A DNA stretch of 64,000 bases from Magnolia sinica. Its lineage: Eukaryota > Streptophyta > Magnoliopsida > Magnoliales > Magnoliaceae. The number at the start of each line of letters is the position of its first letter. Position 1 is the first letter of the stretch. The notes beneath the pieces were generated by a model. That model was not told the DNA's origin. It did no database searches and saw only the letters and a program-made list of their open reading frames with translations. Positions 4,280 to 52,437 of this stretch are shown piece after piece. The translations under genes and the position numbers were made by a program. The DNA lies in NCBI RefSeq assembly GCF_029962835.1, contig NC_080577.1, forward strand, positions 6,076,001-6,140,000. The letters are read 5' to 3'.

Positions 4280-5239
4280 CTATGGTAGAAACTCCTCTTC
4301 ATTTTCGTCTTCACGGTTTTGTTGCCCTTCCATGGAATTGTTATACTCATAGGCATTCTCATTATTACCATAATAACCTCTGTTATTGTACTTATTCTTA
4401 GGATCGACGTCCGTGGAGGACTCGTACCCCTGATTAATTCCCTTCCCAGAAACATACCCATTTCGGTAATTATCGTTGGCGTTGACGTTGTAGTAGTACT
4501 TTCCATGCTCCAGGAATCTGGTGTCGCTCATGCCGTACTGCTGGTTGTTGGGGTAGCTGGTGGTGGACTCTTTGTTCTTGTAGCGTTGCTCGTTTTCGTA
4601 CTGGCTGTTGGGGTAGCTGGTGGTGGACTCTTTGTTCTTGTAGCGTTGCTCGTTTTCGTACTGGCTGTTGGGGTAGCTGGTGGTGGACTCTTTGTTCTTG
4701 TAGCTTTGCTCGTTTTCATACTGGCTGTTGGGGTAGCTGTTGGTGAACTCTTTGTTCTTGTAGCGCTGCTCGTTTTCGAACTCGGTGTTGGGGTAGCTGG
4801 TGGTGGACTCTTTGTTCTTGTACGTTTGTTCGTTTTCGTACTGGCTGTTGGGGTAGGTGGTGGTGGACTCTTTGTTCTTGTAGGTTTGGTCATTTGGGTA
4901 TTCCTCAGTAGAGTACTTGGATGGTGAGTTGCTACCATTGTACTCTTCAGTTGAGAATTTTGATGGAGAGTTTACAGTATTGAACTCTGAATTGGAGTTG
5001 GTTGTGGTGGGGGTGAATTTTTCAGAGTCATGGCCGTAGAGGCCATAACCATGTCGGCTTTGCGGGATGACATCTTCTTGTTTTGGGGTGGGGACTTGTT
5101 TTTCTACGGATTCTGTTTCTTGAACGGTGTTGTAGCGGGATACCTTGCCGAAGAACTGGCTATCCCTCGCTTGAATTTGGAGGGAGGAGATGAGGATGAG
5201 GAGAATGAGGGAAAGGAGGGGTTTTGGAAAGGTAGCCAT
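4280..5239 (-). CDS. E6-like secreted plant protein
   Basis: This single-exon frame encodes 319 residues. Residues 1-24 form a clear signal peptide (hydrophobic LLSLILLILISSLQIQA), so the product should enter the secretory path and probably reach the cell wall. Residues about 118-232 are 20-residue repeats (YKNKEST, YPNSQYENEQ), rich in N, Y, E, K and S. They are followed at about 237 by MSDTRFLEHGKYYYNV, which matches the hallmark of the plant E6 family first known from cotton fibre (GMSDTRFLENGKYYYD-type). The tail is N/Y-rich and ends acidic. The start is chosen because the signal peptide begins right there and a TATA box lies about 75 nt upstream. The biochemical role of E6 proteins is unknown; they are associated with walls of expanding or fibre cells. 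Family assignment is good, function is not established. Confidence 0.88.
   Translation of the reverse strand: MATFPKPLLSLILLILISSLQIQARDSQFFGKVSRYNTVQETESVEKQVPTPKQEDVIPQSRHGYGLYGHDSEKFTPTTTNSNSEFNTVNSPSKFSTEEYNGSNSPSKYSTEEYPNDQTYKNKESTTTYPNSQYENEQTYKNKESTTSYPNTEFENEQRYKNKEFTNSYPNSQYENEQSYKNKESTTSYPNSQYENEQRYKNKESTTSYPNSQYENEQRYKNKESTTSYPNNQQYGMSDTRFLEHGKYYYNVNANDNYRNGYVSGKGINQGYESSTDVDPKNKYNNRGYYGNNENAYEYNNSMEGQQNREDENEEEFLP
4541..4900 (-). repeat. 60-bp in-frame tandem repeat inside the E6-like gene
   Basis: About six units of 60 bp (20 codons) in strict register. The units beginning at 4561 and 4621 look identical in all 60 bases, while the outer units differ at several positions. This suggests recent expansion from the centre by slippage or unequal exchange. 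Because the period is a multiple of three and the sequence lacks stops in other frames, the repeat also opens long spurious frames on both strands. Confidence 0.9.
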
Positions 5240-5311
5240 GGGTGAGAAAAAGAGAGTGAGAGAAAGAGAGAAAGGTTGCAGTGAAGTGAAGGAGAGATGT
5301 GATCATCCACA

Positions 5312-13119: not shown

Positions 13120-13746
13120 GTTTGGTATCAGAGCGAGGTTTCTCCCCGAATCGATGGTTCTAACAACGGGTCGAGCAACAATCCTATGAGCGGTGCTCCA
13201 AGGAATTTAACTTTAATGGCAGTAGCTTTTGAAGCGGTACAACGAGAGAATCGGCAAGCCATGTAAGGGCTGCAGGCTTCCATCGATCGCATGACGGATC
13301 GTTTGGCGGAGGCCCTAGGGCAGCTCCGTGTTTATGGTGGTGATCCACTACCAGCAATTGCTGGAATTCGTAATTATATTGATCGTAGGGCGATGCTATC
13401 AATGAACCACAGGATGGTTCAAGAATTCAAGATGAAAGTCGATCTTCCTAATTTTAATGGCCAACTCTACTTCAAGGACTTTTTCGATAGTTGCTTGTAG
13501 TCGAACGTTTCTTCGACTATATGAACATCATAGAAGAAAAGAAAGTTAAACTCGTGGCCTACAAGTTGACAGGCAAAGCTTTGATACCAAACTGACGCAG
13601 GGGAGGACGTGTATTGTGTCAGCTCAAGAGCTTAATGCCAAGTACAAAAAAAGGGCTAATGAACATCGGCGTCAGAAGTTATCTCAGACTCATGTGCCAA
13701 GTCTCTTGCGTAACTCGAGGACGAGTTTTTTTCAAGTCGAGGGGTC
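13120..13746 (+). mobile_element. Internal region 1 of the array (short, broken)
   Basis: Contains the primer-binding site, the first part of a Ty3-type gag region and the 3' end of the internal region with a purine-rich run before the next LTR. Most of an ordinary internal region is absent. At 13580-13610 there is a roughly 30-bp inverted copy of the LTR-end/primer-site junction. It is a fossil with several breaks. Confidence 0.85.
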
Positions 13747-14396
13747 TGATGTAGAACGTATCACAGATACGTTCCCAGCATGGTTGAGCCAAAAGAAGAT
13801 GGAAGGTGAATTAACCATAACTTTTGATCCGGGTATTGTTATGGGGTGCTCAACCTATCAATCTTTACTGAAACGGGTTATCCGAGGTGAACCGACCCAC
13901 AAAGTGGGTCGCATCTGTCCGTTTTGTTAGAAAACGTGCGCTTTTAGCTCAAAAATGAATTTTTAGAAAAATTTTATTATTTTTAATAATTCAGATTTTT
14001 TTAATATTTTTTAGAGTTTTAGATTTTCTTTCCTTTTAGAAATAACTTTTAGTTATACTAGGACTCTTCTAGAGAAAGTTTATTTGCAATTTTTATTTTT
14101 AGAAATTAGGCCTTAGAAGAGTTTTATTAGAATTATGATTTTTATTAGAGTTAGAATTTTGCTATTTTTGGTAATTACGAATTTTAGTTTATTTTTTTCT
14201 ATATTAATGGTGTAAGGACACACATTATAGAATCATCAATTATTCATCAATCAATTTCGAATTTATTTCTATTTTCTGCTTTCTTTTATTGTGGATTCGA
14301 GAAGTCTCTGTGAGGAGTCCAGAGAAGTTCCGTGGATTCAAAATAGTTATCCTCTTGAGGAAGACGGTGCTCGACCTCACGTCCTCCCCTGCGTTA
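13747..14396 (+). mobile_element. LTR 2 (shared middle LTR)
   Basis: About 650 bp, same family as LTR 1 and LTR 3. By eye it differs from LTR 3 by around 5-6 % in the first 230 bases, so the insertion is old (millions of years by usual plant rates, inferred). It ends right before a second primer-binding site at 14400. Confidence 0.9.
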
Positions 14397-15630
14397 GTTT
14401 GGTATCAGAGCAAGGTTTCTCCTCGGATCGATGGCTTCTAACGACGGGTCGGGCAACAATCCTATGGGCGGTGCTCTAGGGAATTTACCTTTAACGGCGG
14501 CAGCTTTCGAATCGGCGTAGCGAGAGAATCGACAAGTCATGCAAGGGCTGCAGGCTTTCATCGATCGCATGGTAGATCGTTTGGCAAAGACCCTAGGGCA
14601 ACTCCGTATTTATGGTGGTGATCCACCACCGCCAGTTGCTGGAATTCGTAATTATACTGATCGTAGGGCGATGCTATCAATGAACCACAGAATGGTTCAA
14701 GAATTCAAGATGAAAGTCGATCTTCCTAATTTTAATGGCCAACTCTACTTCAAGGACCTTCTCGATTGGTTGCTTGAAGTCGAACGTTTCTTCGACTACA
14801 TGAACATCATAGAAGAAAAAAAAGTTAAACTCGTGGCCTACAAGTTGATAGGCAAAACTTCAGATTGGTGGGAACAACTTCAACTTGATCGGACGAGACA
14901 GATGAAGGTGCCAATCCGCACCTAGCCGCAGATGAAGAAGTTATTGTACATGCGATTCCTCCCTCAAGATTACGATCAGGTATTATTCCAACAAAACCAA
15001 AATTATTATCAGGATAGTCGATCAGTAAAAGGTTATGCAGAAAAATCCTATTATTGGTCCGTGAGAAACGACTTCATCAAAATGCAGTTGCAACAGACCA
15101 CATGATTTATCAGTAGCGAACATGTGACCTTTATAGGAATGGAAAACCAACACAAGACTTCTAAAGTTGAGGAACAGTCTCTCACAATTGAACAGGCTTT
15201 TGTCAAATAATCTGAGGAAACAAGACATATATCCATTAGTTGAAAATGAAGAATATATGGAGCTTGTGAATATCCCAGAAGATTTGAAGCCAATTTTGCA
15301 GGAGTTCAAGGAGATTGTGCTCGATGAACCCCCCGATAAATTGCCTCCCATACGAGATATACAAAATTACGTTGATCCCGTTTCAGGGGCAAGTCTGCCT
15401 AATTGCCCACATTATCAGAAAAAATATGAGATCTTGAAGACAGATGTGAAGGAACTGATCAATATTAGTCAAGTCAAGGAAAACATGAGTACGTGTATTG
15501 TGTCAGCTCAAAAGCTTAATGCCAAGTACAAAAAAAGGGCTAATGAACATCGGCGTCAGAAGTTATCTCAGACTCATGTGCCAAGTTTCTTGCGTAACTC
15601 GAGGATGAGTTTTTTTCAAGTGGAGGGGTC
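14397..15630 (+). mobile_element. Internal region 2 of the array (broken)
   Basis: Carries the primer-binding site, a gag region of Ty3 type (recognisable words YGGDPPPPVAGI, FNGQLYFKDLLDWLLEVERF, TSDWWEQLQ), a short remnant of the pol region near the start of reverse transcriptase (words LPPIRDIQNYVDPVSGASLP), and the 3' end with a purine run. Protease, most of reverse transcriptase, RNase H and integrase are not seen. A non-functional fossil with many breaks. Confidence 0.88.
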
Positions 15631-16280
15631 TGATGTAGAACGTATCACAGATACGTTCCCAGCACGGTTGAGCCAAAAGAAGATGGATGGTGAATTAACC
15701 ATAACTTTTGATCCGGGTATCGTTATGGGGCGTGCAACGTATAAATCTTTATTGAAACGGGCCATCCGAGGTGAACCGACCCACAAAGTGGGTTGTATCT
15801 GTCCGTTTCGTCAGAAAACGTGCGCTTTCAGCTCAAAAACGAATTTTTAGAAAAATTTTACTATTTTTAGTAATTTCGAATTTTTTAATATTTTTTAAAG
15901 TTTTAGCTTGTCTTTTCTTTTAGAAATAACTTTTAGTTATAATAAGACTCTTCTAGAGAAAGTTTATTTGCAATTTTTATTTTTAGAAATTAGGCTTTAG
16001 AAAAGTTTTATTAGAATTAGAATTTTCATTAGAGTTAGAATTTTGCTATTTTTGGTAATTACGAATTTTAGTATATTTTTTTCTATATTAATGGTGTAAG
16101 GACACACATTATAGAATCATCAATTATTCATCAATCAATTTCGAATTTATTTCTATTTTCTGCTTTCTTTCCTTGTGGATTCGAGAAGTCTCTGTGAGGA
16201 GTCCAGAGAAGTTCTGCGGATTCGGAATAGTTATCCTTTTGAGGAAGACGGTGCTCGACCTCACGTCCTCCCTTGCGTCA
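15631..16280 (+). mobile_element. LTR 3 of the array
   Basis: About 650 bp, TGATGTAGAACG to CCTTGCGTCA, preceded by a purine-rich tract GTGGAGGGGTC. The 5-bp repeat CTTGA follows directly. The shared outer CTTGA pair shows that all three LTRs and two internal regions occupy one insertion site. Unequal recombination between copies would give this pattern. Confidence 0.9.
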
Positions 16281-37740: not shown

Positions 37741-37976
37741 GGCATCTTATGGCATTATATATATACACACACACTCACACCCACAAGTTGTTGCAGTATT
37801 AATGAAAAGAATAAAGAAAAAATGAAAAGAATAAAGAAAAAACAGAGTTGTGAAATAAACAAACTCTCTCTTGAATGGGTGTGATCATCTCAAGAGGACC
37901 ATTGGAACCCTTCTTCCAGATTTTCCAGCATGATCATGGTAGATGACCATATGTGGTTAGCCCAATTCATTACAAT

Positions 37977-37978
<2 letters not shown>

Positions 37979-38039
<61 letters not shown>
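37979..38039. repeat. (TG)n-(TA)n compound microsatellite
   Basis: About 20 TG units followed by about 10 TA units. An imperfect tandem of AATGAAAAGAATAAAGAAAA lies nearby at about 37801-37842. The rest of 37740-39830 shows only repeat fragments and unassigned sequence. Confidence 0.9.
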
Positions 38040-43248: not shown

Positions 43249-45641
43249 TCAAGCACAAGATGGTGGTATTTTTGATATTCCTTGCTTTTGTAGTTCCACC
43301 AACACACCCTCCATAGATGGGGGCTTTAGTCCAAGAGGAAGTGGCAGCCATGGCTTTGCTAAAACATCTCCAATAGCTGCATCTACGGTCTCTTTTGACT
43401 GTTCAAATCCCAAAAACAACAGATGTAAATAAAGTTCCATACTATAAACAAGTACATGCTACATTATTTTGTTATAGAGACATATTGTTCACATATAATA
43501 ATGATGTATGTGAGCCTTAGCATACAATGTTTTTTTTTTTTTTTTTAATTTAATTATTTTAATTTTTTTTAACTTTCATCTTAGTCATGCAAAAGGTGGG
43601 CCACAACATAAATATGAACTAGGAGAAAACTGGACCCATTGAATCCCTTGATTTGGAAGGCATAGCCCACCTAATGAATGGACCATCCCACTTTTCTCCT
43701 ATAAAAATTTTCATGGTATGTCCCACCGTGTGCACGTTTAGGATACTCTTTAGAATGACACATTGGTATGAAAGCAAGCATTGTATGTGGAAGTTCATGT
43801 ATACACAAATGTTTGTCTCTGTCGTGGTCTTAAAAGAAATTAAAATAACTTGACACAGCAATGGTTGTTGAATGATGGCCAGGTGCACCTTTCTATAACC
43901 TAAGCTATTGCAATGAAAGAACTCTTAATTTGATGGTCCTTCCACCTCCACCTCCATCATCAAATTATATTAGCCATCTAGATCACCACATAACATTGGA
44001 CGGCTGCAAAACAAATCCTTTATTTGCTACCTAATATTTATACACATTCATTTAGAATTCATCTTGTTACTATGCCTTGCATATTGCTCTATGCATATTT
44101 TGATGCTGATTGAGCTGGTAATCCTTATATATCATAGACACTATGAGTGGTTATTGTGTTTTCTGGACCAAATCTTGTTTCTTGAACTTAGAAGAAACAT
44201 GCTATTGTTGTATGTTTGAGTGCCAGAACAAAAGATGAAGCTCTTGCTAATGTTGTTGCTGAAATTTGTTGGCTTCACTTGTAAGACTCTTATCAGGTGG
44301 GCCACTTATGATCATCAATTTAGATCTAATCATTAAATTATTTAGATTGAGAGATTCAATGGGCCCCACTACAGTTATAATCATTGCAAATAGGTTTGAG
44401 GCAGGATGCTTGAACCGGTGTCCCTATACACGGTTATTAAGCCGGATATAGAAATTTACGGTATGAAGACCATAGAAGAGAGAAGTATGATGGGTAAGCT
44501 TCTCTGTCCCTCTTTTCTGTAAATAAATGTCTTGATTCCCTCGCTAATATAATAGAGAAAACCTTAGTCCCATTGAAGGTTCTTCTAGAGGTGTGAAGTG
44601 AGGAAAATTAAAATTTTCATCGACGATATTGAGGCATCAGGAATGTCTTCTAAATCAAGTTGCTTTTGAGATTAAAGCTTTGAATCTTCATTATTGATGC
44701 ATAAATGATATCCATCAATTCCACAATAAAGATATAACATCACTTGCTCCTTTGTGACCTAAGAGTGTTTCTAAAACTTTCATCAACAGTGTAGTGTGAC
44801 AATTTGAGTGCGACAAACATATTTGAAGGAGCTTTGATCAAATCTGAATGTTGCTTCATACACAAACAAACCATTTTTAATCTGACTCACGACGTTCTTA
44901 TGCAGTCACACATGATCAATTCAAAGGATTTGATGTGTCTCAGTTTTGGCGGACGCAGATGTGCTTGCGGGAGGGTATTGAAATTCAAATTTCTAGGGTA
45001 TTTGTATACTGTTTTAATGGACAATTAAACAGCCATCTTGTAACTGATTTAAGATATTAACAGATGGCCTTGCCAATCTATGGTAATGGTGAGTAGGGGT
45101 GTACACGTTCCGAGCTAGCTTGATTGGCTCACTTGACTCGACTCGAAAAAGCTTGACTCGACTCGGATCGAAGCTGAGTTCGAGCCAAGTCGAGCTTTAT
45201 TTTTGGAGCTTGAAAATGAGTTCGAGCTTACCGCAGCTCGACTCGACTTGGATCAAATCCAACTCGAACTCGTCTCGACTCGGTTTGACTCGGCTCGACC
45301 TGGTACAAGGCACATATACCCTTTTTAAAAAAAAAAAAAAACCCTATTACCCTTTATTCATTTTCCCTTACCCGCACGGATGCCCGCCCCCTAAACCCTA
45401 ACCCATCTTCTCTCTCTCTCTCTCTCTCTCTCCGTTCCTTTCCTACCATCTGGACCAATCTCGTGCACCCCTCTCTCTCTACATTCGCCAGTGTAAAAAA
45501 AAATAAAATCAGAGAGAGAGAGCGAGAGATGAACGGAGAATTGTAGGAGCAGCGATGAAAAGTGTCTCTTCAACACCTGGTGATTACATCCACTTCAACT
45601 CCCAAGTTCCTCTCCACAAGATCTCCATACACACACACACA

Positions 45642-45689
<48 letters not shown>

Positions 45690-47205
45690 GTTGAATTTCC
45701 TGTAGTTTTGGATTTTCGGTTTCTATCCTTAGCACATTTGGTGCATTATTCAATATTTGCTATCGATTATATATTAGAATTGGATGCTGCTCGTTATTCA
45801 ATCTCGTGGTTCTGTATGATTTGGTTTTTCTTAGCTTTCTTTTATTTATTTTTTATGTTGCCGATTTTGAAATCAGTTAAACATATTGAAAAAAAATTAT
45901 CAAATAAATTGAGGTCACCTCTTTGATTAGTGCATAAAGCAAATTACCTTTCTCTATCCCTATTGTTCCTTGTGGGCCTCGAGACATCTCAAACTCGGCT
46001 TGAAAGCTCGAAGCTCGAAACTGGCTCGAACTGTTTCAATTGCTGGCCGAGCCAAGCCGAGCTGGAGATGTTGGCTCGGTCATCAAGCCGAGCCGAGTTC
46101 AAGCTGGATGTGCTTGGCGACCGAGCTGGGTTCAGCTCGACTCGGTTCAGCTAGATGTACACCCCTAATGGTGAGAGAGCAATTTCTCAAACTTGCTGCA
46201 TTCCAATTTGTTCAAAGCCCGTGTTCAATCCATCCATAATGTAATTATTCTGTGCGTTTATCTCGAAAATCAAATCCGATAAATAATACCCAAAACTCTT
46301 CCATGCACGTGGGAGATGATAGCCTGGACTTAGAAAAACTGGAAGATTGCAGAACCATCTCTCTTTAACAACAAGTATGCTAGGTCCGGTCTACCCATAT
46401 ATAGATAGACCTAGCATGGATGGCTTATCTCTAAAAAATTAGGCCTATTAAACAATCATATCCATCTAATCAGTGGACAACATCAAATGGATGGTCTAAA
46501 CTAAAAATGGTTAATGGTCAAGATATGATTGTTTGGCAGGTTTGATTTTTGAAACATAAGCCATCCATGCAAGGGCCTAGGAGATGGATGGAAACGACTG
46601 AAAAATAACCCTACTATGTGTGCTTTGGAGAGACGGCACAAGTACTAAGATAGTACGCTTTTGTGCTGTTCTAATGTCAAGAACAGAAAAGGCAGTGTAC
46701 GTATCAAAAACTTGGGGGACAGATATCAATTCCCAAAAGGGAGGGAGAAAACAGAAAATAGCTTCTTACCGGATGGAAGTCTATATGGTCGGATTGTCCG
46801 CTTGGAATGGGAATGCCGTTGTCTACTTTGCGCAATGCATGGGGTGGAATGCCTGGCACTGGAACTGTAATTGGAGTAGGAAATCTCTGCATACATTTCC
46901 TTGAAAGAGTAAAACTCTCCATATTCTAATCTATTTACATGTGCAAGAGATGTTTTATTTGTTACAGTTACCATGATATAAATGGAAGCTGTCTCTTGTG
47001 TTTTGTAGCAGTGACCAACATGTGATAGGAAGCTAGTAAATGAATCCAAGGGCTAACGGAAAAGATGCACAAATGCAAACAAAAGAGTAAGGAAAAGGCT
47101 GAGACAAATACCGGGGCTGTCATTGGTTGAGGGAAACAAGGAGTCCCTTGGGTGAAAGCATTTGGAGCCCAGCCATCTTTGGATACCTGAAGGGAAGAGT
47201 CACGT

Positions 47206-47266
<61 letters not shown>

Positions 47267-49564
47267 TTACATGCTGATGTGGAGGGTGCCAATAGGAAGG
47301 ATCCAGAGGAGGAGGAGGCACCCATGATGGTGGCGGTGGAGATGGCGAATGGACCAGATGTTTCGGCCACAGATGTACAATGGACTGATCTACGGTCGGA
47401 TGGCCCCACACGTGCAATGGCCTGAAATGCTGGAAGGCAGTAGGGAGAGGAAGAGGAGGGAATCCCATTGTAGGTGCAATCCAAGGACCCATATCTCTCT
47501 TCCCTCCACCCCCATACATTTGCCGCCTTTGGCTCCAGCTTGCCGCCCCTGCTTCCCTTGCTAGCGTATGCTTCCGATGCGACCGATATTTCTGTACATA
47601 ACTCACAATATTCAGCCTCTTCATGCTATTCTTTGTTTTTTCAATTTAAGTCTACATCTCTTATAACTTTCATTTCTCCCAATCATGACTCCGGATCAGC
47701 CACCATGTGTTCCAACATTGGGCCCACATGTTGAGATGATCTGATGATCTTAACCGTCCATGTCCTTGATGCTACCACATGCAGACCAGTACATGAAACT
47801 TGAATTGAAAAAAATTTAGATGGTTCACATTCAACCCAAAATCATAGGTAAGGATCATCCTTCCAAGTGATTGGGCCATATCTTATGGTACCAGTGAGAA
47901 GATGGCGGCTCCTAATATTGGACCATCTCTGCGTGTGGGTCAACAGGGCTACAGAAGATGGCAATCCTGAGTTATAGCCACATTGTAGATAAAAAAAAAA
48001 AAAACCAGAAGCTCCCCATTTGAAGATGGCCCCATTGTACAAGTTATTGCAACCAAACCCTACTAAATATTGCAAATATGAGCTTTAGAAGATCTTTCAA
48101 TTCATTAGAAAAAACCAAACAGCCATTTCTATATTTTACTTAGGACCTCCAATCTTTCAAACAAAACCCATGTTTTTTTAATATGTTTTCCTAAATTAAA
48201 AAAGAGAAAAATGTTTTTTTTTTTTTAAATTGTTATATCTACAAGCTTCTTCTATCCATTACCAAGAACAAGGCTGAAATTCTTTTCTATGTTTTTGGGA
48301 AGGAAAGGAAAAAAAAAAACCATGTTTCCCATCAATGAAAACAAAAACATTTAAATAAATAAATTATTAAAAAAAAAAGAAAAAGAAGAAGAAGAAGAAG
48401 AAAAAAAACCAATTCATATCTAACATCAGAAAAGAAAGGTTGAAAAGAAAATGAAAATAGATAAGAGCTTGAAAATTTCAAACGGTGTAGCAGATAGAAG
48501 AGAGGTCTATGTACTTGAAGATGACTGGCAATGTTATGGCGCGTAAGACAATCAATCCCCATAAGCTCCAAAATCCGTGAAGGCACTGCCTTATCCACTC
48601 CCAGCTGCTCCACCACTTGAACAAATCGACGGTGCAGGTCTGGCGTCCAATCCACCTACACACAATCCGATGAAAGTTCACAAACAAAAACCAAAAAAAA
48701 AAGGAATTTGGGATAAATGATCAGGTGGTCTCATTCCCACTACAACTCAGTCTGGACACTTGATTGGGACCGTTCATAAGGTCCAGAACACATTTCATGG
48801 GCTACCATTAAAAATAAAATAAAAAATCATATCAATTGGATAATCAAATCCATTGGTAAGATGGATTTTCTTTTTTTTAATTTCACCAAATCCCAATTAC
48901 CTCTCTTCCCTTTTCTCACAAGACCCGTATCTAACATGCACCTTCAGAGTCTTGTGCTCATCCAGGACCAAACCAACCCATGATTTTATTGATGCCTTTT
49001 TCCACACTCATGATATATGGGACCATCTATTTATCTTGTAATTCAGTTTTATTGTGAGAGAGAACCCTACTCGAATCTCCTTAGCAATAGTTACACCATG
49101 GGCTCATGTTAGCACGCTCACACACACCCCTCGTTAGTACTTACCTTCACTTTCTTCCTCCCTTGGGACCCTTTGGCCTGCACTATTGCCGGCTTCCGGC
49201 CTCCATCGCCATCCCACAGCCCAGAATTTGCTGATGTCGTGACTGAGTCCTCTCTCTTACTCGCCAACTTCTCTCCTCCACTTGATCCCTTCTTCTCCTC
49301 CACTTTCTCAGTCACAGTCGTCGGTGGCGACATAGTCACCTCCGACGATGACTCCACCGGGAATTCTGTGAGCATCTCTGGGTCCATCTCCAAATCTGGG
49401 AGTACATCTCCATCATCAATTCCGACGAAGAGATCATCGAAGTTGATATCGTCAAGCAAGTTTGCCGACAACCCGTCAGTGAAATCGTCTGCTGCAGCCA
49501 AGAAGCTTTCCATCTCTCCCTCCCTTTCATTCTTGGAGCTTCTAAGAGGTGATACTGAAAGCAT
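43249..49564 (-). CDS. GLK: GOLDEN2-LIKE (GLK) GARP transcription factor
   Basis: Exons on the minus strand: 49564-49145, 48655-48515, 47591-47271, 47186-47112, 46886-46770, 43398-43249. All introns are GT-AG and phase 0. The product is 407 residues, the usual GLK size. GLKs are nuclear activators of chlorophyll and light-harvesting genes and drive chloroplast development (known for the family). The start MLSVSPLRS and the acidic part with [20 protein letters not shown] match GLK N-termini. The GARP Myb-like DNA-binding domain is residues about 141-193 ([45 protein letters not shown]). It is followed by [10 protein letters not shown], where most relatives have AREAEAASW, a proline-rich centre (residues 215-293), and the GCT box (residues about 295-407: [43 protein letters not shown]). 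The last intron (3.4 kb) holds a hAT-type element. Confidence 0.95.
44080..44285 (+). mobile_element. Ty1/copia pol relic (RNase H region)
   Basis: Plus-strand frames show scattered words of the copia RNase H region: FDAD, AGNP, MSGYCVF, and [16 protein letters not shown]. Short and badly broken. It lies in GLK intron 5 opposite to the gene. No LTRs were recognised around it. Confidence 0.55.
45094..46167. mobile_element. Non-autonomous hAT-type element carrying host gene sequence
   Basis: 1074 bp in GLK intron 5. Perfect 8-bp target duplication ATGGTGAG (45086-45093 and 46168-46175). Terminal inverted repeat TAGGGGTGTACA on both ends. Subterminal zones (45110-45310, 45985-46150) are dense in CTCGACTCG / GAGCTCGAG words, as in the elements at 227 and 51822. 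The central 650 bp is different in style and appears to be captured host gene sequence (separate entry). No transposase. Confidence 0.9.
45380..45960 (+). pseudogene. Captured 5' part of a maspardin-like gene inside the hAT-type element
   Basis: After a leader-like C/T-rich stretch with AAACCCTAACCC and (CT) runs, an ATG at 45555 opens 24 codons including [15 protein letters not shown]. This matches my memory of the N-terminus of plant maspardin (SPG21-like alpha/beta hydrolase: ...[18 protein letters not shown]...). The match stops near 45626, where a (CA)/(CT) microsatellite begins. The following 300 bp has a T-rich intron look. So it seems to hold leader, exon 1 and part of intron 1. It is opposite to GLK and lacks the catalytic part, so no hydrolase can be made. 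The gene identity is from recall and unverified. Confidence 0.6.
47209..47264. repeat. (GA)28 microsatellite filling GLK intron 3
   Basis: 56 of the 84 nt of intron 3 (47187-47270) are a perfect GA run, read as (CT)28 on the coding strand. It starts about 6 nt after the 5' splice site GTAATAT. The 3' end is CTTCCCTTCAG. Adjacent exons 3 and 4 align with GLK proteins with nothing missing. Confidence 0.92.
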
Positions 49565-51821: not shown

Positions 51822-52437
51822 TAGGGGTGTACACCGAGTCGAACGAAGTCGAGCTGGCCTCAGCTTGACTTGGCTTGGCCACTAGCTAACCCTTGCTTGA
51901 ACTCAGCTTGGTCTTCAAGCCTGATTGGCCATCCTGGCTCGGTTCAGTCAGCAGCTCGGGCCAGTTCGAGCTAAGTTTGAGCTGAGTTCACCTGTGCAAC
52001 ATTTTCACAAACACATGGACTGCGCTTTCAAATTAAATCTCACTGTATGTAAAACAATAGTAGTGATTTTACAGATATTTTATCAAATACCCTCTAAACA
52101 ACATCAAAATTAAGGGAAAAAGGGTATTTGTTTCATATACATACCTTCCTTGCCACCAATCACACTTTGTTGAGTCATTTCATCAAACACTTGGTAAGCA
52201 ACATCAATATCAAAGTAACCGAGTCACCAAACTGATTTGATCCGAGTTTGATTCAATTTGTATTCGATTTGAGTCGACTCATGCTAGGGCCCGTTCGAAC
52301 TCGACTCAAACTCATTTTTGAGCTCAAAAAATCAGCTCAACTTGGCTCGAACTCAGCTTTGAACAGAGTCGAATCAATCTTTTTCAAGCCGGATTCCAGT
52401 GAGCTAACCAAGCTAGCTCAGTTTGTGTACACCCCTA
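51822..52437. mobile_element. Non-autonomous hAT-type element
   Basis: 616 bp, ends TAGGGGTGTACAC in both directions, flanks GACACAAT and GACGCAAT (7 of 8). Same family as 45094-46167, with CTCGAACTC/GAGCTGAG-rich subterminal zones. The central 200 bp (51990-52230) differs from the centre of the other copy. On the minus strand it holds an open stretch with VAYQVFDEMTQQSVIGGKEG, which faintly recalls a PPR motif and may be another captured piece (weak). Confidence 0.82.

Follow-up and report, generated by a model that had tools for sequence, protein, structure and literature searches.

A hAT-type element in the last intron of a GLK-like gene of Magnolia sinica, probably carrying the 5' part of a maspardin gene

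The GLK-like host gene

A 64-kb stretch of Magnolia sinica DNA, referred to below as the window, contains a hAT-type element of 1074 bp (45094-46167) within a predicted gene that we take to be GLK, a chloroplast regulator; both the gene name and the C-terminal box of the protein are putative assignments.

43249-49513, minus strand: GLK-like host gene, predicted, with six coding exons
49513-49145, 48655-48515, 47591-47271, 47186-47112, 46886-46770 and 43398-43249, minus strand: coding exons of the GLK-like gene

The exon model was drawn by eye from the sequence and comprises five GT-AG introns (489, 923, 84, 225 and 3371 bp); its frame stays open over 390 residues up to the stop. In the predicted protein, Pfam identified a Myb_DNA-binding domain at residues 123-173 (E 1.4e-7). 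Of the five introns, the element occupies the final one, which is also the longest (46769-43399, 3371 bp, minus strand), and its inner reading frame is on the plus strand, antisense to GLK. The first-pass annotation of this DNA had already placed it in the largest GLK intron and antisense to the gene, and the open six-exon model bears this location out.

Intron 3 of the same gene (47187-47270, 84 bp) consists mostly of a (TC)n tract of about 57 bp at 47209-47265, and length variation of this tract might affect splicing. Elsewhere in the window, the open reading frames at 13550-13930 and 15137-15850 were seen by eye to have a long near-identical protein stretch in common (FQVEGSDVERITDTFPA.LSQKKM onward), and the frame at 14521-14925 in the same region is presumably gag-like; this may be a duplicated part of a retroelement. 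On the minus strand, an open frame of 340 residues with repeated SYPNSQYENEQ.YKNKEST units was observed at 4280-5302, which presumably resembles a plant E6-type protein.

Ends of the element and target-site duplication

45086-45093, no strand: target-site duplication, left copy, ATGGTGAG
45094-45105, plus strand: left terminal inverted repeat, TAGGGGTGTACA
45094-45320, plus strand: left subterminal region, rich in GAGC/CTCG, inner border approximate
45979-46167, plus strand: right subterminal region, rich in GAGC/CTCG, inner border approximate
46156-46167, minus strand: right terminal inverted repeat, the reverse complement of TAGGGGTGTACA
46168-46175, no strand: target-site duplication, right copy, ATGGTGAG

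The two ends carry an exact terminal inverted repeat of 12 bp, past which the identity stops, and they are flanked on the outside by an 8-bp target-site duplication, ATGGTGAG, with all eight positions matching. The ends had been called hAT-type in the annotation, and both exact matches uphold this. To be counted, a candidate had to combine an exact 12-bp inverted repeat, a span of 150-5000 bp and a flanking 8-bp repeat with at most one mismatch; the chance background came from 200 surrogates generated by a first-order Markov model of the window. All surrogates together yielded six such cases (0.03 per window) versus three in the real window, namely the element itself, a second copy with identical inverted repeat at 51822-52437, and a stretch of CA/AT repeats at 37763-38021. 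Furthermore, the densest 200-bp stretches of GAGC, GCTC, CGAG and CTCG in the window all overlap the ends of the element at 45094-46167, which is a genuine transposable element.

Terminal inverted repeats of hAT elements start according to the rule YARNG, and the repeat found here starts with TAGGG, in agreement with this rule. Elements of the Mutator type have a 9-bp duplication and long inverted repeats, and this type was ruled out by the 8-bp duplication and the short repeat. The duplication also agrees with nTnnnnAn, which is given as the canonical target consensus of the hAT element Hermes (PMC2803484).

The element had been described as having no transposase. None was recognisable: the longest stop-to-stop open reading frame overlapping the element has 139 amino acids, and a Pfam scan, confined to the 123-amino-acid frame starting at 45555, gave no family.

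A second member of the family

51822-52437, minus strand: second member of the element family, 616 bp, same terminal inverted repeat, orientation opposite to 45094-46167

The first-pass account of the element had not included this copy. Its flanking duplication (GACACAAT/GACGCAAT) agrees at seven of eight positions, and of the consensus nTnnnnAn it has only the A. At the left end, homology to the second member covers 45094-45226, with 111 of 134 aligned positions identical, and at the right end 46124-46167 is alike at 35 of 44. Local alignment of the two members gave no match longer than these end segments, and forced global alignment showed no convincing similarity in the centre. Since the ends can be aligned and the centres are unrelated, the ends are what identifies the family. 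The annotation had proposed looking for copies of the element with and without the centre, and the one other member within the window lacks it. This settles the matter in part, as the sole member compared, with 80-83% identity at the ends, may belong to another subfamily.

Make-up of the centre

45321-45554, plus strand: leader-like tract with telo-box AAACCCTAA at 45393 and CT and GA repeats, left border uncertain
45555-45626, plus strand: ATG-opened frame of 24 codons, resembling the N-terminus of plant maspardin (provisional sequence)
45627-45688, plus strand: (CA)n(CT)n microsatellite, where the first intron would be expected to begin
45689-45978, plus strand: T-rich part of 290 bp (44.5% T), interpreted as intron-like

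The centre differs in composition from the subterminal DNA, as had been stated before: GAGC or GCTC was counted 8 times in the 227 bp of the left end and 9 times in the 189 bp of the right end, versus 3 times in the 658 bp between them. The leader-like tract and the ATG-opened frame that had been proposed for the centre were both located. The tract may be a captured promoter or 5' UTR, and its telo-box and CT-rich stretch could be native to the element subfamily. No GT donor is visible at the expected start of intron 1 near 45627; speculatively, a CG-to-CA change at the expected donor would account for the missing GT. The T-rich part fits an intron, as T-richness is typical of plant introns.

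Likeness to maspardin

The frame starting at 45555 was compared with a provisional sequence for the N-terminus of plant maspardin. Over the 24 codons and two further codons, 19 of 26 positions are alike, and the ATG aligns to the initiator Met of this sequence. This alignment scored 96, whereas the next-best place in the six frames of the 64 kb reached 26 and ten shuffled queries 23-33. Beyond about 25 codons the likeness is lost, and the microsatellite and T-rich DNA follow. A cloning primer for sweetpotato maspardin (IbMas) encodes MKGVF after a BglII site (PMC4264881), of which three of five residues are alike in the MKSVS of the element; this is the one piece of outside support for the identity.

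Searches with the 24 codons gave no family in Pfam and, among PDB sequences, a single match at chance level (RIB27A, E 0.84). A PDB search with 144 residues of the provisional maspardin returned 36 sequences with E up to 0.01, which were alpha/beta-hydrolases and related enzymes and none of which was named maspardin. These matches fit the maspardin family; in each sequence the best match begins at residue 18 or later, so that the N-terminus lies outside them. A degenerate DNA pattern for GDY..QVPLHKI had no matches in two contig collections, and since these are viral and prokaryotic, the blank result carries little weight. The subterminal pattern of the element was absent from viral contigs, the element had no match among plasmids, and maspardin peptides searched as text had no match in open-licence literature.

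Taken from the alignment, the 24-codon frame is likely the maspardin N-terminus that the first-pass annotation had named. The score, the shuffled queries and the primer speak for the name; as the comparison sequence was itself provisional, the likeness counts as a strong lead and does not amount to a test against a database.

Origin of the centre

Probably, the element is a non-autonomous hAT element (Pack-hAT) into which the 5' part of a maspardin gene was copied from genomic DNA and which was moved into the GLK intron. The element's own sequence would then be confined to the two GAGC/CTCG-rich ends, and the middle, from about 45321 to 45978, would derive from a maspardin (SPG21-like) gene of the host, whose leader, start codon, first coding exon and beginning of intron 1 would have been copied as genomic DNA. 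A hAT transposase supplied from elsewhere would then have carried the complete unit into the last intron of GLK, creating the 8-bp duplication. The ends, the duplication, the location, the kinship to the second copy and the lack of the centre there were observed directly. The maspardin source of the centre, its capture from genomic DNA and a transposase acting in trans are what we infer. We favour a genomic template because the likeness does not extend past about 25 codons and gives way to intron-like, not coding, sequence. Insertion of a processed cDNA was rejected, as the likeness runs into microsatellite and T-rich DNA and not into the downstream codons of the provisional maspardin.

For the route of capture, replication errors during repair after excision have been suggested (cited in PMC3260210), and fusion of neighbouring elements was proposed for Pack-TYPE elements (PMC8903248); a 2026 review still leaves room for an undiscovered alternative mechanism (PMC13317346). 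In a composite variant, two family elements flanking a maspardin 5' region would have been mobilised as one unit. This model is in print for Pack-TYPE elements (PMC8903248), and another family member is found about 5.7 kb away within the window, but this neighbour is oppositely oriented, whereas 12 of 15 local hAT pairs of maize share one orientation (PMC8903248). No remnant of an internal inverted repeat rises above chance either: the best match, at 45462, has 9 of 12 positions, and at least 9 were reached in 114 of 200 shuffles. Fusion is thus without positive support, even though none would be expected if the internal ends had been deleted, and we regard it as possible but rather unlikely. 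A different explanation dispenses with capture altogether and takes the centre for native filler of a hAT subfamily with a coincidental likeness to maspardin. The 24 codons had no database match in Pfam, PDB or the viral and prokaryotic contigs, and CT, GA and CA repeats as well as the telo-box form part of the centre, which would suit such filler. The only other member in the window lacks this centre, however, and a coincidence would have to produce a score of 96 against at most 33 in ten shuffles together with an ATG aligned to the initiator Met of the provisional maspardin, so that native filler appears improbable.

Capture of maspardin DNA by the element, as preferred here, leaves its present effect to be considered, and most likely there is none, the element being an intronic passenger removed by splicing. 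Given an open GLK frame and an intronic element, a neutral passenger is explanation enough. A donated promoter or antisense transcript had been suggested in the annotation: the captured 5' region might still be an active promoter, from which a transcript antisense to GLK tunes GLK expression. The antisense direction of the inner frame and the telo-box and CT-rich leader-like tract upstream of the ATG point this way, but the sole plus-strand TATA[AT]A in the element, at 45768, falls within the intron-like part instead of preceding the ATG, and with a neutral passenger sufficing, an active promoter is considered highly improbable. It is a very long shot that the hAT element moved a complete 5' unit of a housekeeping gene (promoter, leader, ATG, exon 1 and the start of intron 1) which, in antisense position, still works as a promoter, so that antisense or chimeric RNA would lower or re-time GLK and hence chloroplast development.

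Relation to published gene capture by hAT elements

Compared with Pack-MULEs, the element would act alike, as an element with terminal inverted repeats that shuffles gene pieces, and it differs by its 8-bp duplication and 12-bp inverted repeat; the Mutator-type features named above were not seen. Capture had been called less well known for hAT elements than for other types. This is fair, but published cases already exist for grapevine and maize (PMC2528002, PMC3260210, PMC8903248). Gene capture is described as a rare feature of the hAT superfamily (PMC3260210).

In the Ac/Ds family of maize, two Ds2 and nine Ds-l4 elements were found with gene fragments, of which Ds2-22 and Ds-l4-354 keep introns (PMC3260210). 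Like the element described here, these two are non-autonomous hAT elements with a host gene fragment that includes an intron, which indicates a genomic copy. Their donor genes were located in the maize genome, whereas the donor here is a putative maspardin gene; their inverted repeats have 11 bp and not 12 bp (PMC3260210), and the piece in Magnolia would be a 5' end that includes a leader and a start codon. Pack-hAT elements were also reported in maize (PMC8903248), with hAT inverted repeats around captured coding DNA and less repeated DNA inside than at the ends, as here, although the captured gene is another one. Hatvine-6 of grapevine is a hAT family with captured host DNA, the members of which have common inverted repeats and differ in much other sequence, a pattern that is shared here; their variable parts often match host DNA, both genic (exons and introns) and non-genic (PMC2528002). 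According to the same source, Hatvine-6 members have transposase coding sequence in common, whereas none was seen in this element.

Among the matches listed in a search of open-licence literature, no paper dealt with maspardin inside a hAT element or with a hAT element inserted in a GLK intron. The element adds one clear case to the published examples of hAT elements with captured genes. Once a parent gene is located, comparison at both borders of the captured piece could help to decide between errors of repair and the fusion of adjacent elements.
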